From Oscillospiraceae bacterium (lineage in GTDB: Bacteria; Bacillota; Clostridia; Oscillospirales; CAG-272), in assembly GCA_015064555.1 (NCBI GenBank), contig SVRZ01000026.1, positions 1 to 36,907 on the forward strand: 36,907 bases of DNA, read 5' to 3'. A program made the position numbers and the translations under genes. Under the pieces are notes generated by a model. It saw only the letters and a program-made list of their open reading frames with translations. It had not been told where the DNA came from and did no database searches. Shown one piece after another: positions 308 to 32,574 of the stretch (position 1 is the first letter of the stretch; the number at the start of each line of letters is the position of its first letter).

Positions 308-1915
308 TTATTTCTCTTTAATAATGGGATAATAATGTTTATACCCAAGAAAATAATGGGCAACATATCCGTTTTTAAATATAAAGGAAGGGATATTATA
401 ATATTCGCCGTCCTGCTCTACCCAAGCCTTCCATCCATCGGTGTCGGAAAATTCTATTTTATGAAATAGATATCCCATATCGAAAGCAAACTCACCTATA
501 TATCTCACACCTCTGCCTATCCTTACTACGAATAAGCGATCTGTAGAAAAGGCGAAATCGCCTATTGTATGCACACTGTCAGGAACCGTTATCTCCCTGA
601 AATCAGATTGATAGAATGCTGCATCTTCTATTTCGAGAAGTCCCCGAGGAAGCTCAATCTCCGTCGCCGATGAATATTTGAAGGCATTTTCTCCTATAAT
701 CTCAGTGCCGGAAAGAACGGTTATGCTCCCTTTTTTGCCCATTGGCGAACGTATGAGGCGCTTACCGTCCTTGGTGTAAAGAATACCGTCTACCGATTTA
801 TAAGCCGAATTTTCTTCACTGACGTTTATCGCCGAAAGTAATTCCGCATAATCAAACGCATCATCCCCGATCGACTTAACGGTAGAAGGAATACATATCT
901 CTTTGAGTGAATGACAACCGTCTATAAGCCAGCCGCCTAACACCTCGAGTCCATCAGAAAAAACTATCTCTTCAAGATTTCCGCATCCCTTAAATGCAGA
1001 GTCGCCAATGCTTTTAACAGAAAACGGTATTACAATTCGCTTAAGTAGATCACTGTCGTAGAATGCCGAAGCGGATATATCGGTAATAGATTCAGAAAGG
1101 ACAAGCTCTTCATCGTTTCCGAAATAAAGTATCAAGCGCTCCATATTTTTAGTATAAAGGGCACCATCTTTCGCCGTCAGATGCTCATTTTCTTCATTTA
1201 CAGAAATATGCGATACGCCTCTCATATCAACAAACGTATCTTCAGAAATTACAGAAAGATTTTTGCCGATTTCAATCGTTCCGATCTGTGCGAAATCAAA
1301 AGCATGCTCGCATATTTCAACAACAGAATCGGCAATTCCGACATAATCAAAAGCATGATCGCAAAAGGTATACGAACCGATAACCGATACGCATTCCGGA
1401 ATTTCAATACTTTTAGTACCGCCGTTTATTACGCTTACAAGTATTCCGGTGCTTTCCCAACAGAGCATATTTTCATATACTTCAAAGCAGAGATTTTCTT
1501 CATCTACGGTTATACGTGCGATATCCGATGCAAAAAACGGATTAACGCCCATAGATTCGACCGAAGATGGAATATGAACCTCCTCAAGCCACATCAAATT
1601 TGCAAAAGCCATATCTCCGATATGTTTAACGGTATCCGGTATAACCAGCTTATCTATCCAAGCTCCTTCAAATGCGTAATCACCTATAGCCACAACCTTA
1701 TGCCCATCAATCTCTGCGGGAATTATCGCCTGATAGAACGGTGTCATATGACCTCCCAGAATATAATTATCAACTATAACGGCATCGCCATCATCGTTCA
1801 GCTCATATACGTAGGAATCGGCATCGACGATCCGGTCAGACGCATAGCACGAAATCATAATACCGAGCGGCAAAATCAGAAATGCCAATACCAAAATCAA
1901 TCTCAGTAATCTCAT
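308..1915 (-). CDS. BspA-like leucine-rich-repeat surface protein
   Basis: A 535-residue exported or surface protein. It begins with a basic, hydrophobic signal segment (residues 1-22) ending in MISC, a poor lipobox, so a lipoprotein or a cleaved secretory protein are both possible. The rest is LRR_5 (BspA/TpLRR) repeats such as VKSIGDSAFKGCGNL and LEIEDAAFYQSDF. They are interrupted by the usual strand-forming inserts (VDGILYTKDGKRLI type) at roughly residues 135-165, 240-265 and 370-395. Family members are thought to act in adhesion or host/matrix contact; no enzymatic domain is seen. AAGGAGA lies 6 nt before the ATG, and a good promoter lies upstream, divergent from htpG. A shorter LRR_5 protein is encoded at 33425-34423. 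Family assignment is firm; the role is inferred. Confidence 0.85.
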   Translation of the reverse strand: MRLLRLILVLAFLILPLGIMISCYASDRIVDADSYVYELNDDGDAVIVDNYILGGHMTPFYQAIIPAEIDGHKVVAIGDYAFEGAWIDKLVIPDTVKHIGDMAFANLMWLEEVHIPSSVESMGVNPFFASDIARITVDEENLCFEVYENMLCWESTGILVSVINGGTKSIEIPECVSVIGSYTFCDHAFDYVGIADSVVEICEHAFDFAQIGTIEIGKNLSVISEDTFVDMRGVSHISVNEENEHLTAKDGALYTKNMERLILYFGNDEELVLSESITDISASAFYDSDLLKRIVIPFSVKSIGDSAFKGCGNLEEIVFSDGLEVLGGWLIDGCHSLKEICIPSTVKSIGDDAFDYAELLSAINVSEENSAYKSVDGILYTKDGKRLIRSPMGKKGSITVLSGTEIIGENAFKYSSATEIELPRGLLEIEDAAFYQSDFREITVPDSVHTIGDFAFSTDRLFVVRIGRGVRYIGEFAFDMGYLFHKIEFSDTDGWKAWVEQDGEYYNIPSFIFKNGYVAHYFLGYKHYYPIIKEK

Positions 1916-1969
1916 AAGACTTCTCCTTTATATAATATATAGGAAGAATTTTTACACACTTCTACAATA

Positions 1970-1998
1970 ATTTTACCATACCTCCTCCGCTATGTCAA
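1970..1998 (-). promoter_or_regulatory. Sigma-A promoter of the LRR gene
   Basis: Minus-strand TTGACA (1993-1998), 17 bp, TAAAAT (1970-1975). It is divergent from the htpG promoter, about 50 bp away. Confidence 0.65.
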
Positions 1999-2048
1999 GT
2001 AAAGCGATGCTTGATTATTAACAATTAATAAATAATCTGTTTTACCTA

Positions 2049-2077
2049 TTGACAAGTCGGGCTTGCGGTGCTATAAT
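2049..2077 (+). promoter_or_regulatory. Sigma-A promoter of htpG
   Basis: TTGACA (2049-2054), 17-bp spacer, TATAAT (2072-2077), a consensus promoter. The CIRCE operator starts 5 bp after the -10, so HrcA binding would cover the transcription start. Confidence 0.85.
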
Positions 2078-2081
2078 GCTG

Positions 2082-2108
2082 TTAGCACTCAAGTGAAGCG
2101 AGTGCTAA
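2082..2108 (+). promoter_or_regulatory. CIRCE operator (HrcA binding site)
   Basis: TTAGCACTC (2082-2090), a 9-nt spacer (2091-2099), GAGTGCTAA (2100-2108). This is an exact match to the CIRCE inverted repeat, the target of the heat-shock repressor HrcA. It overlaps the predicted start site of htpG. The same palindrome in the 5' leader would also fold in the mRNA. Confidence 0.95.
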
Positions 2109-2132
2109 CAAGAAAGTCAGAGGTTATTAATA

Positions 2133-4010
2133 ATGAGAAAAAAACAGTTCAAAACAGAATCACAAAAGCTGCTTGATATGATGATCAACTCGATCTACAC
2201 ACATAAGGAAATATTCCTGCGCGAGCTGATATCCAATGCAAGCGATGCCGTTGATAAGCTTTATTTCAAGTCACTTACCGATACCAGCATTCCGCTTTCA
2301 AGAGGCGACTATGCGATATGGATAAAGGCAGACAAGGATGCAAGAACGCTCACTATTTCCGATAACGGATGCGGTATGACCGAAAGCGAGCTTGAGACTA
2401 ATCTCGGTACTATTGCAAAGAGTGGATCCTTCGATTTCAAAAAGAACAACGAGGGCGGCGACGAGGTTGATATTATCGGTCAATTCGGCGTTGGCTTCTA
2501 CTCTGCATTTATGGTAGCAGATAAGATACGCGTGCTCTCAAAACCTTACGGAGAAGAAGTCGCGCACGTATGGGAATCCGAGGGGGCATCCGGTTATACT
2601 ATAGGCGAATGTGACAAGGAAAGCTTCGGAACGGAAATAATTCTTTACATTAAGGCAGATACAGAGGATGAAAAATATTCCGATTTCCTTGAGGAATACA
2701 GGATCCGCGGTCTTATCAAAAAGTATTCCGATTATATCAGATACCCCATAAAGATGGAGGTAGAGCGCGAGCGCCTTAAGGAAGGAACGAAGGACGAATA
2801 CGAATCCTACACCGAAATCGAAACGCTCAATAGCATGATCCCCCTCTGGAAGAAGGCACAGAGCGAGGTTGCAAAAGAGGAGTACGATGGATTCTATAGC
2901 GATAAGTTCTACGACTATGAAGCTCCCTTGAAGGTAATTACCCAGAAGTCGGAGGGAACGGCGACCTATACTGCACTCATGTTCATTCCCTCGCACGCAC
3001 CCTTCAATTATTACACTAAGGACTACGAAAAGGGACTTGAGCTTTATTCAAGCGGCGTTATGATAATGGAGCGCTGCGCGGATCTGTTGCCCGATTATTT
3101 CGGATTTGTCAAGGGACTCGTTGACTCCTCGGATCTGTCGCTGAACATTTCGCGCGAGATGCTTCAGCATGACAGACAGCTTAAGATAATGGCAAAGGCA
3201 ATTGAGAAGAAGATACAGAAGGAGCTTCTTGAAATGCTTGAGAGCGACAGAGAAGCATACGAAAAGTTCTTCGATGCTTTTGGTCTTCAGCTCAAGTTTG
3301 GCATCTACTCGGATTACGGAATTCACAAGGACACGCTCGTCGATCTCGTTCTCTTCCGCAATTCAGAGGGCAAATATCTGTCGCTCAAGGAGTACGTTGC
3401 CGGTATGAAGGAGGGACAGAGCGCAATCTATTATGCTTCGGGCGAAAGCGAAGCAAAAATCGGTATGCTTCCTCAGGTCGAGGCAGTCAAGTCTCGCGGG
3501 TACGAGGTGCTTTACCTCACCGATGACGTAGACGAATTCGCGCTCAAGGTTCTCGGAAAATACGATGAGAAGGAATTCAAGAGCGTTACCGCAGAGGCAC
3601 TCGACCTCGGTGACGATGCCACCAAGGAAAAGATAAAGGAAGCGAACGAAGGCGCAAAGGAAATGCTCGATTTCCTCAAGGATGCAATAGGAAGTGTAGA
3701 GTCGGTCAAATTCTCTGCAAATCTCACCAAGCATCCCGTATGCCTTTCGAGCGAGGGTGAGCTTTCTGTCGAAATGGAGAAGGTTCTCAAAAGAATGCCC
3801 GGTGCCGAGGGCGCTCCCACCGCAAGAGTAGTGCTGGAGATAAACCATTCGCATCCTATAGCAGAAAAGCTGCTTCAGCTCTTTGCGACAGATAAGGATA
3901 AGCTCGGCAAGTATGCGCGCATACTCTACGCTGAGGCATGCCTTATAGGTGGCGTTTCTATTGAAAATCCCGGTGAGCTCGCAGAGCTTATTTCGGAGCT
4001 TATGGTGTAA
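2133..4010 (+). CDS. htpG: Chaperone HtpG (bacterial Hsp90)
   Basis: A 625-residue cytosolic ATP-dependent chaperone of the Hsp90 family, full length. The GHKL ATPase signatures are present: ELISNASDAVDKLY (from residue 31), the DNGCGM motif (about 77-82) and IGQFGVGFYSAF (about 115-126). The middle-domain segment SSDLSLNISREMLQ, with the catalytic-loop Arg, is also intact. The ATG follows AGAGG (2119-2123). Transcription starts at a consensus promoter covered by a CIRCE element, so it is predicted to be repressed by HrcA and induced by heat. In Bacillus subtilis htpG is not in the HrcA regulon, so this regulation differs from that model. A lipoprotein gene follows after 3 nt and probably shares the transcript. 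Confidence 0.97.
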   Translation: MRKKQFKTESQKLLDMMINSIYTHKEIFLRELISNASDAVDKLYFKSLTDTSIPLSRGDYAIWIKADKDARTLTISDNGCGMTESELETNLGTIAKSGSFDFKKNNEGGDEVDIIGQFGVGFYSAFMVADKIRVLSKPYGEEVAHVWESEGASGYTIGECDKESFGTEIILYIKADTEDEKYSDFLEEYRIRGLIKKYSDYIRYPIKMEVERERLKEGTKDEYESYTEIETLNSMIPLWKKAQSEVAKEEYDGFYSDKFYDYEAPLKVITQKSEGTATYTALMFIPSHAPFNYYTKDYEKGLELYSSGVMIMERCADLLPDYFGFVKGLVDSSDLSLNISREMLQHDRQLKIMAKAIEKKIQKELLEMLESDREAYEKFFDAFGLQLKFGIYSDYGIHKDTLVDLVLFRNSEGKYLSLKEYVAGMKEGQSAIYYASGESEAKIGMLPQVEAVKSRGYEVLYLTDDVDEFALKVLGKYDEKEFKSVTAEALDLGDDATKEKIKEANEGAKEMLDFLKDAIGSVESVKFSANLTKHPVCLSSEGELSVEMEKVLKRMPGAEGAPTARVVLEINHSHPIAEKLLQLFATDKDKLGKYARILYAEACLIGGVSIENPGELAELISELMV

Positions 4011-26936: not shown

Positions 26937-28088
26937 TCAAAAATCTATATCTCTATTTTCGAGAGCTGCAAGTCCTACGCGGAGCGCACGAGCTGCGAGC
27001 AATCTCTGCTCCTCGTTCTCATCCTCGAGCATTGGAAGAAGATTTCTGAAGAGCTCGCCCTTTACACTCATATCGCGCCTGAGCTTCTCGGTGCCGTAGA
27101 GCGGAAGAGTTTTATCTATCATATCGAAGGAATAAAGACCGAACGCCTCGGAATCAAGATTTTTCGGAACGATGAACCTCGGATCAATATAGCCTATAAG
27201 CTTGACACGGAGAGCGGTCTCAATACCGTATTTCTTCTCGCTTATCAGGCGGCTGATGCGATTTATGATCTCATTGTAGGCATCAACTCCGGTTATATCT
27301 ATTACCTCGGTATGGAATCTCAGGTGACCGAAGGTAAGGCGACGGACGTCTATTGATATGCCGCCGTTTTTATCATCAACTATAATAAGGTTTGCACCGC
27401 CTATGCCGGGATCGTCAAAGCCTGTGCATTCAAGAGAGCCGCAATAGGTATAGAAGGATGCTCCGACACGCTCAATGGTTCCTGCCTCATGGCGCGAGCC
27501 GAGGGCGTAATAATCAGCGCCGAAGTTTTTGAGATCCTGGGAGGTTATAACGCAGACGTCACCGTTGATATCACCGTCAAGATCGGCATATCCGCACACA
27601 ATATTAACTCTGGAAACATCATCCACCCGCTTATCGTAAAGAGGATTTTCAACGACCTTTCCCGCTCTTGTTCCCCAACCGTAAACGGTCACGTTCAGAT
27701 CGTCAAGATCGACACGTGAAAGCACCTCATCGGTTATAACGCGGCAATTGGATGGCAATCTTCCCGATTTATATATTGGATTGTTTTCGTATGCATCAGA
27801 TCTGCCGGGGGTGATAACGAATACCGTATCGGGGCAACTGTTGAATGCCCTGATAAGATTCTCCGCAGTCAGGTTCGTCGCATAGCTTGTATCGAAAATA
27901 TCGCCGCACATAAGAACGACGTCTATGCGCCTGTCACATACGTACTGCATCATTCTCTCAAAGGAATCAAGAAGTGCGCGGCGGCGCTCCTCACTCTTTT
28001 CTGCCGTGAGTCCCACGAAGGGAGTATCAAGGTGAATATCTCCGCACTGCAGGAATTTTATATGTCTTTTATCGGTTGACTGAGCCAT
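26937..28088 (-). CDS. SbcD/Mre11-like metallophosphoesterase with a degenerate active site
   Basis: A 383-residue protein of the calcineurin-like phosphoesterase superfamily, closest in layout to DNA-repair exonucleases SbcD/YhaO. Motif I is intact (GD17-I-H19) and motif II is intact (GD63IFD66). Motif III, normally GNHD, is G95-R-S-D98, losing both Asn and His. The motif IV His position (family LHG) reads C165-G. Motif V, normally GHxH, is G197-S-R-H200. At least three or four of seven metal ligands are therefore missing, pointing to a non-catalytic or altered protein. GGAGG precedes the ATG at 28088; the open frame beyond it crosses the promoter and is not coding. No SbcC/YhaN-type ATPase gene is adjacent. 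The divergent neighbour is a DNA methyltransferase. Confidence 0.82.
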   Translation of the reverse strand: MAQSTDKRHIKFLQCGDIHLDTPFVGLTAEKSEERRRALLDSFERMMQYVCDRRIDVVLMCGDIFDTSYATNLTAENLIRAFNSCPDTVFVITPGRSDAYENNPIYKSGRLPSNCRVITDEVLSRVDLDDLNVTVYGWGTRAGKVVENPLYDKRVDDVSRVNIVCGYADLDGDINGDVCVITSQDLKNFGADYYALGSRHEAGTIERVGASFYTYCGSLECTGFDDPGIGGANLIIVDDKNGGISIDVRRLTFGHLRFHTEVIDITGVDAYNEIINRISRLISEKKYGIETALRVKLIGYIDPRFIVPKNLDSEAFGLYSFDMIDKTLPLYGTEKLRRDMSVKGELFRNLLPMLEDENEEQRLLAARALRVGLAALENRDIDF

Positions 28089-28131
28089 TAGAAAACCTCC
28101 GCTAAACTCTGAATATATTTCTTCAAGTATA

Positions 28132-28160
28132 AGTATAACACTAAAATCGCGCTTTTGCAA
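28132..28160 (-). promoter_or_regulatory. Promoter of the phosphoesterase gene
   Basis: Minus-strand TTGCAA (28155-28160), 17 bp, TATACT (28132-28137). Confidence 0.55.
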
Positions 28161-28189
28161 CATTTTTTTAAAAAAAGAGTAAAAAACTA

Positions 28190-28218
28190 TTGCAAGAATA
28201 ATAAAAATATGATACAAT
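28190..28218 (+). promoter_or_regulatory. Promoter of the DNA methyltransferase gene
   Basis: TTGCAA (28190-28195), 17 bp, TACAAT (28213-28218). Both divergent promoters use TTGCAA as the -35, which is a palindrome. Confidence 0.55.
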
Positions 28219-28263
28219 ATTCCTAAATAAACCGTGGCAGAATAAAAGGGAGGTATTTGCGCT

Positions 28264-29784
28264 ATGCTGAATCTTGCCGTCCGTAATACGGGAAAGCTCA
28301 TAAGAGAAAAATCTAAGAGTGAGAACATACGTCTAGGTAGAATATTCACGAAAAAAACCACAGCTCGTCTTATGGCAGATATGATAAAGCTCGATATCGG
28401 CAAGAATGCGTATACCGTTCTTGATCCCGGTGCGGGTACAGGCATTCTCAGCGCGGCGGCGGTCGAGCATATTTGTCGCTTTGCCCCCTCCTGCAAGCAG
28501 ATATTCCTGACCTGCTATGAGGATAATCCCGAATTTATTCCCATGCTTGAGGATAACCTTGAGCGAATACGTAAGAAGTGCCGTCACGATTATGACGTGC
28601 GCCTTTTTGTCACCGTTTACAGTGAAAACTATCTTATCGACGTCAAGAACCATTATACCGTAGGACTTTTTGATACAGTCGAGGACAAGTTCGATATCAT
28701 AATCTGCAATCCGCCCTTATACCTTGTTGAGAAGGGCTCTGCCGAGGCAGAGAGCGTCGGCGGTGTTACCATGCTCAAGCTTTCCGCGGCATTCCTCTTT
28801 GCCAAGGTTGCGGCATCTCACCTTGAAAAGGACGGACAGCTCGTTATAATGCTGCCCACCACGATAGCAAGCGCATCCTCGCTCACCGCACTCAGGTGTG
28901 AGCTGGCAAAGACTCTTGCACTCAGAAAGATACATCTTTTCGTCGGCAAGCAGAAGAATACAAAGCGCGCTATCCCTCTGAAGAAATCGGTGATACTCGC
29001 TTATGAGAATACCGAAGCCCATAATGATATCACAATCAGCACCTCCACCGATGACGGCACTCCCGAAAAAACGGTGGTGCTCGACCCTCTTCCCTACGAT
29101 TTCATCGTCGACAAGAAGGACGGAACGCTTACTCTGCCCAAGAGCCTTGAGGAAACGAGGATAGTCAAGTATATCACCTCCTTCCCCGAGACACTTGCCT
29201 CACTCGGTATGAAGATGCGCACAGGACTCGTTATCGACTCGAAGTGCTCGCGCATACTCTTTGATCAGGAGCTGCCCGGCAGTATTCCGGTTATCCGCCA
29301 GAGCTCTATGATAGGCGGCGGTATAAAATTCGGAGATCCTAAGAAAAAAAAGCAGTATCTTATGCCTATCTCGCCCTCGCTCTTCCAAAAGAACAAGAAT
29401 ATGATTATCATAAAGCGTGTTCCGGCAAAGAGCGACGAGAGATTCATAAATGCATCCATCTACTTTGCAGGTCAAAGACCGGCAAACAAATACATCTCCA
29501 CTCACAATAAGGTAAACTTCATAGATATGACGGATGAAAAGGAGGAGATGTCTGCGCGCATCGCATTCGGACTCTACGCACTCCTGAATTCCACCATATA
29601 CGACAGATACGTATCTATAGTTTCCAAGTCGAAGCAGATCAACGCAAAGGAAATGCGCGAGCTTCCGCTTCCTCCGAGAAACATAATCGAGTACATAGGA
29701 ATGCGGCTTATGCAGGTAAGGCAGACCTCGGTTGCCGCCTGTGATTCTATCGTAAATCCAACACTTCACATAAAGAGTAAATAA
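28264..29784 (+). CDS. Solitary adenine-N6-type DNA methyltransferase
   Basis: A 506-residue class I SAM methyltransferase of the TaqI/Eco57I/PstI-like gamma type. Motif X-like segment LGRIFTKKTTARLMADM (24-40) is followed by motif I VLDPGAGTG (52-60), an acidic YEDNPE (motif II-like) and the catalytic motif IV IICN149-P-P-L152. The usual aromatic residue of NPP(Y/F/W) is replaced by Leu, with Tyr next. The C-terminal half (about 300-490) would be the target-recognition domain (RTGLVIDSKCSRILF, FAGQRPANKYIST, NSTIYDRYVSIVSKSKQINAKEMRELPLP). No restriction endonuclease gene is nearby, so it is probably an orphan methylase with an epigenetic or maintenance role, like CamA of C. difficile in concept only. 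GGAGG lies 10 nt before the ATG. Confidence 0.82.
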   Translation: MLNLAVRNTGKLIREKSKSENIRLGRIFTKKTTARLMADMIKLDIGKNAYTVLDPGAGTGILSAAAVEHICRFAPSCKQIFLTCYEDNPEFIPMLEDNLERIRKKCRHDYDVRLFVTVYSENYLIDVKNHYTVGLFDTVEDKFDIIICNPPLYLVEKGSAEAESVGGVTMLKLSAAFLFAKVAASHLEKDGQLVIMLPTTIASASSLTALRCELAKTLALRKIHLFVGKQKNTKRAIPLKKSVILAYENTEAHNDITISTSTDDGTPEKTVVLDPLPYDFIVDKKDGTLTLPKSLEETRIVKYITSFPETLASLGMKMRTGLVIDSKCSRILFDQELPGSIPVIRQSSMIGGGIKFGDPKKKKQYLMPISPSLFQKNKNMIIIKRVPAKSDERFINASIYFAGQRPANKYISTHNKVNFIDMTDEKEEMSARIAFGLYALLNSTIYDRYVSIVSKSKQINAKEMRELPLPPRNIIEYIGMRLMQVRQTSVAACDSIVNPTLHIKSK

Positions 29785-29825: not shown

Positions 29826-29933
29826 GGGGCTGTCACATTTGGCGAACCCGAAAATACGAAGATCGGTAATAATTTAATTATCTTGTTGATTTTCTTTTTT
29901 CGGACCTTCGGTTTTGTCAGATGTGGCAGCCCC
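29826..29933. repeat. MITE-like palindromic element
   Basis: A 108-bp quasi-palindrome with terminal inverted repeats GGGGCTGTCACAT (29826-29838) and ATGTGGCAGCCCC (29921-29933), which differ at one base. A smaller palindrome, ATAATT-T-AATTAT, is at its centre (29868-29880). No ORF is inside and no target-site duplication is obvious. GGGGCTGTC recurs at 34444-34452. It sits 43 nt before the GTPase-nuclease gene, so it could alternatively be a leader structure of that gene. A GGGGC/GCCCC hairpin (29797-29817) just before it may end the methyltransferase transcript. Confidence 0.55.
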
Positions 29934-29976: not shown

Positions 29977-32574
29977 ATGGCAAAGAAGCACACAGTCATC
30001 GGTATTCTGGCTCACGTCGATGCGGGTAAGACGACATTATCCGAAGCAATGCTCTACCTTAGCGGCACTCGCACGCATCTCGGCAGAGTCGATAAGCGAG
30101 ACTCATTTCTCGATACTCACACCATAGAGCGCGAGCGCGGAATAACCGTTTTTTCAAAGCAAGCCACCCTCTCACTCTCCGATACCGATATCACTCTGAT
30201 AGACACGCCCGGGCACGTGGACTTTTCCTGCGAGACAGAGCGCGCACTATCGGTGCAGGACTACGCGATATTGGTAGTCAGCGCGCAGGACGGCCCCACT
30301 CCGCATACGATGCTGCTATACAAGCTGCTTCGGTCCAGAAAAATCCCCACCTTCATCTTCGTGAACAAGACAGATATCGCAGAGCGCCGCAGAATAGATC
30401 TTATGGGCGAGATAAAGCGCGCATTTGGTATGGGGGCGTGTGACTTCAACCTCGAAGCCGAAAACCGCGAGCGCTTTCTTGAGGAATGCGCCGGATGCGA
30501 CGAGGAGCTGATGCACTTATATTTCGAGAATGGCACGTATCCGACCGAGGCACTCGCCGCTTCGATAAGAAAGGCGCGCGTGATACCTTGTATATTCGGC
30601 TCCGCATTAAAGTGCGAAGGCGTTAAGATTCTTCTGGATGCTCTTGATAAATACACCTTGAAAAAGCCATATTCAAGCACGATTCTGGGAGCAAAGGTTT
30701 ACAAAATAGCCACAGATTCAACAGGAAAGCGACTTACCTATTTAAAGGTTACAGGCGGAGAGATGCATCCCAAAGAAACACTTTCGCTTACCCTGAAGGA
30801 CGGCTCACGCACGCAGGAAAAGATAGAAGAGATCCGCCTTTATTCGGCGGATAAATACAAAACGCTGAAAATTGCCGAGGCGGGTTCCGTGTGTGCGGTT
30901 ACCGGACTTTATTCAACCTATGCGGGTATGGGAATCGGTGCTGAGCCTGATGACGACATTACCCTCGAGCCCGTGCTTGATTACAGAATGAGCTTTACCG
31001 ATCCATCGGTTGACGTCTATCGTGCATATCTTTCGCTCCTTCCGCTCGGTGAGGAGGACCCCTCGCTCGGTTTGAGATATGACTCCGAGGCAAAGGAGAT
31101 ACGCGTCAAGCTCATGGGTAAAATACAGACCGAGGTTCTCGCACGTATGATATCCGATCGCTACGGTCTTAAGGTGTCGTTTGACGAGGGACGTATCCTC
31201 TATAAAGAAACTATATCCGAAAAATGCTATGGAGCAGGACATTTCGAGCCGCTTATGCATTATGCGGAGGTCAGGCTACGGCTTGAGCCCATGCCGAGGG
31301 GCTCGGGGAATATCTTCCTCTCCGATTGCCCCACCGACAGGCTCAGGACAAATTGGCAAAGGCTCATTCTCTCGCATCTTGAGGAAAGAGCTCACAAGGG
31401 TGTTCTTATCGGCGCGCCTATCACCGATATAAGAGTAACGCTTATCGCAGGCAGAGCTCACCCAAAGCATACCGAGGGGGGAGATTTCCGCGAGGCTACC
31501 TTCCGCGCGCTCAGGCAGGGACTTATGAAATCGACTACCGTGCTTCTTGAGCCGACCTTTGAATTTACTATAGAGATACCCCAGGAATATATCGGCAGAG
31601 CCATGACCGACATATCTAATATGCACGGTGAATGCGATCCGCCGGAATACACGGATGGGCTTGCCGTTCTGCGCGGAGTCTGCCCAGTGTCGACTATGCG
31701 CTCATACGCGACCGAGCTTCGATCATATACGAGGGGTGCGGGGCGCATCAGCCTCATGGTAGGTGAATACACCGTCTGCCATAATACTGAGGAGGTCATA
31801 GCCGATATGGGATATTCTCCGGAGCTTGATTCCTCCGTCAGCGCCGACTCTATATTCTGTAAGGGCGGTACGGGCTACACCGTCCCATGGCAGGATGCCG
31901 ATTCTATGATGCATACCGACAATCCCGAGTCCGAGCGAGTGAGCAGTGAGAGCACAGATCCGTCGGCATCGGCAGCTACGAGGGCAAGCTCATCCTATCG
32001 CGGCACAGTCGAGGAGGACAAGGAGCTTATGCGTATATTCGAGAGCACCTACGGAAAAATCAAGGAGCGCAGAGCTCCCGAGAAAAAGGTTAATGCCGCA
32101 CCCGAGCCTATAAAGCGCAGATCACGCCCGAAGGAAAAGGGCGAGGATTATATCATAATCGACGGCTACAATCTTATATTCGCCTGGGAGGAGCTTGCAA
32201 GGCTCGCAGAGCGCGACCTCTCACATGCAAGGGATACGCTCATACACCTGATGTGTAACTATCAGGGCTTCAAGAAGTGCAATCTTATTCTCGTATTCGA
32301 TGCATACAAGCGCAAGGACAACGAGGGCTCGGTCGAGCAGATAGGCGGAATCACCGTCGTTTACACCAAGGAGAGGCAGACCGCAGACGCCTATATAGAG
32401 AGATCGACTTATCTTCTGGCAGAGAAGAACAGCGTACGCGTGGTTACGTCTGATTACGTCGAGCAGCTCGTCATCCTCGGCAGCGGCGGAACAAGAGTAA
32501 GCGCGCTCGAGTTTATCAAAGAGGTGGAATCCACCGCCGCGGATATAAGAAGCCTGATCGACGGAGTTATATAA
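29977..32574 (+). CDS. TetM-like ribosomal GTPase fused to a YacP/Rae1-type NYN nuclease domain
   Basis: An 865-residue fusion. Residues 1-650 are an EF-G/TetM-type translational GTPase: P-loop AHVDAGKTT (12-20), switch regions ERERGIT, DTPGH (76-80), NKTD (130-133) and SALKCEG, then domains II-V ending YTVCHNTEEVIADMGYSPE. In the domain IV tip, RAHPKHTEGGDF takes the place of TetM's SPVSTPADF loop, nearer to the TetB(P)-like branch. A polar linker (about 675-720) leads to residues 723-865, an NYN/PIN-like domain with IIIDGYNLIFAW, VFDAYK, QTADAYIE and TSDYVEQ. This matches YacP/Rae1, which cleaves mRNA in the ribosomal A site in B. subtilis. AAAGGAG precedes the ATG. True tetracycline protection is unproven; a stalled-ribosome surveillance role is inferred. 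Confidence 0.88.
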   Translation: MAKKHTVIGILAHVDAGKTTLSEAMLYLSGTRTHLGRVDKRDSFLDTHTIERERGITVFSKQATLSLSDTDITLIDTPGHVDFSCETERALSVQDYAILVVSAQDGPTPHTMLLYKLLRSRKIPTFIFVNKTDIAERRRIDLMGEIKRAFGMGACDFNLEAENRERFLEECAGCDEELMHLYFENGTYPTEALAASIRKARVIPCIFGSALKCEGVKILLDALDKYTLKKPYSSTILGAKVYKIATDSTGKRLTYLKVTGGEMHPKETLSLTLKDGSRTQEKIEEIRLYSADKYKTLKIAEAGSVCAVTGLYSTYAGMGIGAEPDDDITLEPVLDYRMSFTDPSVDVYRAYLSLLPLGEEDPSLGLRYDSEAKEIRVKLMGKIQTEVLARMISDRYGLKVSFDEGRILYKETISEKCYGAGHFEPLMHYAEVRLRLEPMPRGSGNIFLSDCPTDRLRTNWQRLILSHLEERAHKGVLIGAPITDIRVTLIAGRAHPKHTEGGDFREATFRALRQGLMKSTTVLLEPTFEFTIEIPQEYIGRAMTDISNMHGECDPPEYTDGLAVLRGVCPVSTMRSYATELRSYTRGAGRISLMVGEYTVCHNTEEVIADMGYSPELDSSVSADSIFCKGGTGYTVPWQDADSMMHTDNPESERVSSESTDPSASAATRASSSYRGTVEEDKELMRIFESTYGKIKERRAPEKKVNAAPEPIKRRSRPKEKGEDYIIIDGYNLIFAWEELARLAERDLSHARDTLIHLMCNYQGFKKCNLILVFDAYKRKDNEGSVEQIGGITVVYTKERQTADAYIERSTYLLAEKNSVRVVTSDYVEQLVILGSGGTRVSALEFIKEVESTAADIRSLIDGVI

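Follow-up and report, generated by a model that had tools for sequence, protein, structure and literature searches.

What does a protein do that joins an EF-G/TetM-like GTPase to a nuclease domain of the Rae1/YacP type? The question is raised by a 36,907-nucleotide stretch of DNA (the window) from an Oscillospiraceae bacterium (contig SVRZ01000026.1 of assembly GCA_015064555.1). Positions 29977-32574 of the window form one open frame on the forward strand, with an ATG start and a stop codon at 32572-32574. Its product of 865 amino acids (aa) carries an EF-G/TetM-like GTPase in residues 1-646 and a C-terminal NYN_YacP (Rae1) domain in residues 726-859. An earlier description made from the sequence alone (hereafter the original prediction) had proposed that this GTPase delivers the nuclease to stalled or drug-blocked ribosomes. 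We observe that the fusion and a separate Rae1 gene are nearly, though not absolutely, exclusive of each other. The parts of the fusion gene are as follows.

29977-32574 (+): whole fusion gene, 865 aa; a single open frame, with the same domains in the 120 best homologues
29983-30657 (+): GTPase (G) domain, residues 3-227; Pfam GTP_EFTU, E 6.6e-48
within the G domain (+): G motifs, namely the P-loop AHVDAGKT, switch II DTPGH (H80) and NKTD, from an alignment of fused, unfused, Tet and EF-G proteins
31045-31182 (+): EF-G domain III-like, residues 357-402; Pfam EFG_III, E 3e-6
31192-31533 (+): EF-G domain IV-like, residues 406-519; Pfam EFG_IV, E 6.9e-20, with an EF-G-like fold in the model
31459-31482 (+): domain IV tip loop HPKHTEGG, residues 495-502; alignment motif
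31540-31785 (+): EF-G domain V-like, residues 522-603; Pfam EFG_C, E 7.6e-19
31777-31914 (+): C-terminal extension of the GTPase (CHN...FCxxGxGxxVxW...MH), residues 601-646; pattern in the alignment
31915-32142 (+): linker, residues 647-722, for the most part disordered according to the model's predicted local distance difference test (pLDDT), apart from one helix at 678-692
32146-32571 (+): Rae1/YacP-type NYN nuclease domain, residues 724-865; NYN_YacP E 1.1e-45, PDB 5mq8 E 4.1e-23, invariant active-site residues

Each of the five Pfam matches (GTP_EFTU, EFG_III, EFG_IV, EFG_C and NYN_YacP) lies above its own curated cut-off. The features of a translational GTPase are present, namely the G motifs, the DTPGH switch II histidine and EF-G-like domains IV and V. 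With all domains above cut-off in one open frame, the 865-residue GTPase-NYN fusion of the original prediction is confirmed. Among at least 7987 scored homologue candidates, the best 120, which include the window protein, all contain the GTPase and NYN_YacP domains and measure 855-881 aa. The same domain set and similar length in the 120 best homologues listed show that the fusion is neither a chance event nor an assembly joint.

The fusion was found in 151 distinct genomes, counted by frame length over the union of our samples. The GTPase part was confirmed for the fusions of the relatives and of the phylum sample; those of the class sample and of family f91 were called by frame length only (at least 600 aa). 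Named carriers include Agathobacter rectalis and Monoglobus pectinilyticus, and the nearest named relatives of the window genome are Clostridia draft genomes from herbivore guts. The database search that the original prediction had pointed to thus recovered the two-domain architecture widely, although this architecture had already been published. Atkinson 2015 (PMC4342817) described, in ten Clostridiales species, Tet proteins that had acquired a YacP-like NYN domain, with the same arrangement of a Tet/EF-G-like GTPase and NYN domain in one frame. That study placed the fusions in the Tet subfamily and suggested RNase-based resistance, and the accessible part of its text reports no experiment. 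Our literature search, in which most hits were judged from their listings and whose scope excluded two papers on Rae1, Leroy 2017 and Condon 2018 (the latter on Rae1 distribution, with a possible mention of the fusion), found no further description beyond PMC4342817. New with respect to the latter are the 151 genomes, the measured near-exclusion and the position of the GTPase outside the Tet(M/O/S/W) clade.

The NYN_YacP profile matches the C-terminal domain with 156 bits against a cut-off of 24.6, and the last 143 residues match the Bacillus subtilis YacP/Rae1 structures (PDB 5mq8 and 5mq9). This sequence match, together with a mostly confident model, points to an NYN fold. Residues D729, N732, D775, D804, E808, D826 and Q830 are all present in the window protein. 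The seven positions are invariant in 170/170 fused proteins of the alignment, D826 excepted (169/170), and all are kept in 24/24 separate Rae1 proteins. These positions, conserved in separate Rae1, have a catalytic role. The 170 fused rows (169 distinct) were selected because both parts are present, and they include the 120 closest relatives of the window protein; the 24 separate proteins are best-scoring matches of the phylum sample (L031-L060) and are therefore biased to high scores. The acidic residues of Rae1/YacP claimed by the original prediction are thus indeed there and near-invariant, at positions D729, D775, D804, E808 and D826. With no active-site position varying in more than one of the 170 fusions, the nuclease appears to be kept active. 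The window protein therefore shares its family and active-site positions with B. subtilis Rae1, which differs in being a separate small protein.

If the fused nuclease is the Rae1 of the cell, a second, separate gene would be redundant. In the window genome (82% complete), the only NYN_YacP match is the fusion. Among 98 relatives, 39 have a NYN_YacP match, and exactly these 39 also encode a strong orthologue of the GTPase part (E 3e-186 or better); one of them (G016) was counted although its frame has a stop codon. Of the 398 genomes in a phylum sample, 229 gave a NYN_YacP match, which exceeds the cut-off in 224. The fusion is found in 30 of these (GTPase confirmed in 30/30), the match lies outside a fusion-length frame in 194, and no genome has both, as against 14.6 expected (Fisher p 7.6e-10). 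These counts omit five genomes with sub-cut-off matches only (G357, G471, G128, G445 and G382) and the sub-cut-off second match of G408; G408 and G331, where the match is a fragment at a contig edge, were entered among the genomes with a separate gene. A class sample of 293 genomes gave 193 with a NYN_YacP match, 44 of which fall outside the matches listed. Among the 150 matches listed, 84 genomes have a fusion-length frame and 62 a separate gene; four with intermediate frames of 295-376 aa were left unclassified. At least one genome among the matches listed has both forms, as against 17.8 expected, and the Fisher p is 2e-9 if one is counted and 9e-7 if four are. The Fisher tests treat genomes as independent although they are related.

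Six mixed families are the better argument for exclusion. Family f77 (5 genomes) has one fusion and four separate genes; f91 (19 genomes) has nine fusions, one separate gene and nine genomes with neither; none of these genomes has both. In f28, f183, f202 and f184, both forms are present in different genomes. The sole separate gene of f206 is that of G734, the one genome in which both forms were read at their loci, and absolute mutual exclusion was dropped on its account. The absence of a separate yacP from fusion genomes, named as a check in the original prediction, holds in nearly all of them (0/30 with a separate gene in the phylum sample, G734 being a clear exception).

Which half is responsible for this pattern can be judged from unfused close homologues of the GTPase (640-670 aa, 39-45% identity over the GTPase part), which were found in seven genomes of the phylum sample. 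Four of the seven also have a separate Rae1 (G368, G260, G280 and G318), compared with 0/30 fusion genomes (p 5e-4); no NYN_YacP match was found in the other three (G456, G411 and G372). A separate Rae1 is thus tolerated beside an unfused GTPase, indicating that the exclusion arises from redundancy of the nuclease and not from that of the GTPase.

We then asked what kind of GTPase carries the nuclease. It is about equally distant from Tet(M) (29.6% identity) and from EF-G (25-27%), and Tet(M), Tet(O), Tet(S) and Tet(W) together range over 27-30%. The nearest NCBIfam model is tet_protect (NF012153), with 382.7 bits against a cut-off of 775; the TetM/W/O/S model (NF033148) gave 246.6 bits against 1100 and the EF-G model 272.6 against 659.4, so the protein stays below all three cut-offs, and far below that of EF-G. 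The SPVSTP tip of Tet proteins has a role in dislodging the drug. This tip is present in 4/4 Tet rows of the alignment, but in 0/170 fused and 0/10 close unfused rows. The corresponding motif of the fusions, HxKHTxGGDF, occurs in 158/170 fused, 6/10 close unfused and 0/4 Tet rows, and its core HTxGGD in 164/170 fused and 10/10 close unfused rows. EF-G-type rows have HEVDSSE or a similar tip, and the fusion tip has a histidine where EF-G also has one. The FCxxGxGxxVxW core of the C-terminal extension behaves likewise (163/170 fused and 10/10 close unfused rows) and was found in none of the 10 distant unfused, 4 Tet and 7 EF-G-type rows of the alignment. The close unfused homologues (Bacillales, other Bacillota and Ligilactobacillus salivarius, the tenth row being the split gene L125) therefore share the tip core and the extension with the fusions and differ in lacking the NYN domain. 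They end shortly past the extension, whereas the fusions continue with the linker. Compared with Tet(M/O/S/W), the fusion has the extension, the linker and the nuclease in addition.

In the structure model, residues 1-640 are predicted to adopt an EF-G-like fold. EF-G-type chains filled the structure-comparison lists, so that the absence of Rae1 from them is uninformative; a single-sequence model (pLDDT 32.6) was not usable. The linker has a pLDDT below 50 at residues 653-677 and 695-719 and of about 67 around its helix. The helix motif (EDKELxxIFExTYGxI) occurs in 129 or 143 of the 170 fused rows, depending on the pattern used. We considered that this helix might be the relocated C-terminal helix of separate Rae1, an idea prompted by the short tails of fusions that have the motif (141/143, versus 8/27 of those without it). 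The idea was dropped: profile scoring of the 24 separate tails missed the expected helix, two fusions (L076 and L085) have both helix and tail, and two with long tails (L063 and L064) have a similar linker helix. The linkers of other long-tail fusions scored no better than shuffles for this helix.

In a GTPase tree of 86 rows (quick search, with support from the Shimodaira-Hasegawa-like approximate likelihood ratio test only), all 55 fused proteins fall in one clade (support 100), which also contains two unfused proteins. Other close unfused proteins, including those of Bacillales, lie just outside it, and Tet(M), Tet(O), Tet(S) and Tet(W) are found in another clade. By these sequence comparisons the GTPase is a clade of its own, distinct from EF-G and from the protection proteins of Tet(M) type. 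This placement in our tree differs from the Tet-subfamily assignment of Atkinson 2015, which has a model of its own. The original prediction was right about the EF-G-like domains and about a tip reading HPKHTEGG instead of SPVSTP; a GTPase of TetM type, and a TetM tip that had been replaced, are not upheld, since the protein belongs to a separate clade with a tip of its own.

The two unfused proteins inside the fused clade deserve comment. L125, from a draft genome, is a fusion split over two frames (1109-3163, GTPase of 684 aa, and 3564-3974, NYN of 136 aa); the split is either real or a sequencing error. L151 (5983-7917), from a L. salivarius megaplasmid and adjoining rpsN (S14), is a possible case of nuclease loss. 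In a more careful tree of 38 of the 86 rows, the fused proteins and L151 group together (support 90/97), and the fused proteins stand alone on one side of a branch in 0/200 bootstrap trees. Constraining the fused proteins together was not rejected (approximately unbiased (AU) test, p 0.254). In the NYN tree (55 fused, 24 separate), one branch with support 99 divides the two forms. Taken together, both trees and the AU test fit one fusion event, and several origins are not needed, the nested L151 notwithstanding.

From these data we tentatively favor the view that the fusion acts as the Rae1 of the cell. Its EF-G-related GTPase would carry it to ribosomes whose A site is empty or blocked, and there the nuclease would cleave the mRNA. 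In the cycle that we envisage, the GTP form would bind the factor site and insert domain IV, tipped by HxKHTxGGDF, into the A site. GTP hydrolysis would withdraw domain IV. The NYN domain, on its mostly disordered linker of about 75 residues, could then enter the emptied A site and cut the codon there, as proposed for B. subtilis Rae1, and transfer-messenger RNA (tmRNA) would free the ribosome afterwards. Consistent with the last step, of 30 fusion genomes tested for tmRNA, 29 gave a match above the curated cut-off; the thirtieth (G178) gave only a weak one, as archaeal controls also do. Action on the ribosome follows from the two families; that hydrolysis times the cut is our inference, and ribosome binding, GTP gating, mRNA cutting and a role in stalling or in the drug response are likewise proposed properties of the protein. 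It is conceivable, at a lower level of confidence, that Clostridia replaced the free Rae1 by a GTP-driven form, in which the own-clade GTPase detects a blocked A site or frees it and then gives way there to the tethered nuclease, which cuts the mRNA.

Several observations weigh against this interpretation. Many genomes have neither the fusion nor a separate Rae1 (59/98 relatives, many of them incomplete drafts; four of the 59 hold a weaker, ordinary Tet-like GTPase), so that the function seems dispensable. G734 has an intact 882-aa fusion and a 171-aa separate Rae1 (L188 2278-4926 and L189 4746-5261, respectively), the latter between rlmB-like and sigma-factor-like genes in what is apparently the usual rlmB-side place (neighbours named by sequence look). 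G598, G642 and G670 each have a second NYN_YacP match and may be further cases. The four of seven genomes with a separate Rae1 beside an unfused GTPase are close to the background of 194/398 and offer no hint of cooperation between the halves as separate proteins. The tail after Q830 has 35 residues in the window protein, compared with 57-64 in the 24 separate Rae1 proteins (fused rows: 27-38 residues in 146/170, 43-49 in 3 and 56-70 in 21). Rae1 R166P is among loss-of-function suppressors (PMC6613710), and this position would lie in the tail, provided that B. subtilis Rae1 has the length of its 170-aa relatives here. Domain IV and the NYN domain are unlikely to fit in the A site together, which makes the order of events a conjecture. 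Lastly, B. subtilis Rae1 is not known to need such a GTPase.

This last point also serves the main rival, namely that the GTPase and a housekeeping Rae1 each do their own job and that the fusion only co-locates or co-expresses them, with no gating of cleavage by GTP. Both halves exist separately in other Bacillota, in four sampled genomes as two separate genes of the same cell; the model shows a long linker with little order, and the Ligilactobacillus protein L151, unfused yet placed within the fused clade, shows that separation may happen. Yet the fusion is compatible with one origin and has been retained in many families, which suggests more than co-expression, as does the recurrent linker helix, and neither half occurs alone in the 39 relatives that have either. 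We regard a passive tether as rather unlikely. The second rival is a role in resistance: the fusion would be a ribosomal protection protein that dislodges tetracycline or a different A-site drug, with the RNase adding a further step, as suggested in Atkinson 2015 (PMC4342817). It can draw on the Tet-subfamily filing of that paper, on automated names of the TetM/TetW/TetO/TetS type and on tet_protect as the nearest model. The sub-cut-off scores, the absence of SPVSTP from all fused and close unfused rows and the clade separate from Tet(M/O/S/W) speak against it, and make it an improbable explanation. Tetracycline-susceptible L. salivarius isolates (PMC7178285) and an intermediate strain with tet(M) and tet(L) (PMC12502609) have been reported; these data weigh neither way here.

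A role of the NYN domain in rRNA or tRNA maturation or quality control, with the GTPase as a ribosome-assembly or checking factor, is very doubtful. Maturation of rRNA and tRNA was the first proposal for NYN_YacP (Anantharaman and Aravind 2006, as cited in PMC4342817), and in two separate-gene loci that were read Rae1 adjoins an rlmB-like gene, near an mrnC-like gene (names by sequence look). B. subtilis Rae1, however, cuts mRNA in a translation-dependent manner (PMC10100781, PMC11780869); S1025 was its first characterised substrate (PMC11780869), and an efp mutant is suppressed by loss of rae1 or of the neighbouring yacO (PMC6613710).

The surroundings of the gene were also examined. Upstream of the fusion gene lie pheT, a metallophosphoesterase gene and an N6-methylase-like gene. 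The metallophosphoesterase and methylase-like frames (26937-28496, minus strand, and 28264-29784, plus strand) overlap on opposite strands, and a long TTG start is probably wrong. Over 39 loci, some of which are short, no neighbour family was shared by more than 8, and a conserved operon was not seen. A strong inverted repeat, GGGGCTGTCACAT ... ATGTGGCAGCCCC, lies at 29826-29933 just ahead of the fusion gene, and the hairpin region folds better than 200/200 shuffles (z -3.9). Other places in the genome have short hairpins that share these ends (L168 and L172; a single arm in L173), and Rfam gave no match in the window at gathering scores; an attenuator was rejected on these grounds. PADLOC models (E 0.001) matched no family, and phage defence was likewise set aside. 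The window genome also encodes its own EF-G and a second EF-G-like protein.

Some related records are unusual. One 1153-aa fusion (L150 4082-7540, in G074) has about 300 residues without a Pfam match ahead of the GTPase, and a 1190-aa frame in G652 may resemble it. Two records from human faeces entitled 'UNVERIFIED: Bacteriophage sp.' (L192 5421-8021 and L193 6001-8484) match 98-100% of the fusion, with 49.5% and 45.6% identity, and are possibly bacterial scaffolds.

Automated annotation calls members of the family 'TetM/TetW/TetO/TetS family tetracycline resistance ribosomal protection protein', 'translation factor GTPase family protein' or 'NYN domain-containing protein'. Tetracycline-resistance-type names stand on those of A. 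rectalis, L. salivarius and a Clostridia draft genome. Such names may mark genes that have no part in resistance, which matters for resistome surveys. The fusion ties Rae1 to a GTPase whose relatives enter the same A site, and it is the only Rae1 in nearly all fusion genomes sampled; this allows a direct test of whether GTP hydrolysis controls mRNA cutting on the ribosome. If the proposed view is true, a large share of these bacteria would have a GTPase-gated, single-protein mRNA surveillance machine at the ribosome.

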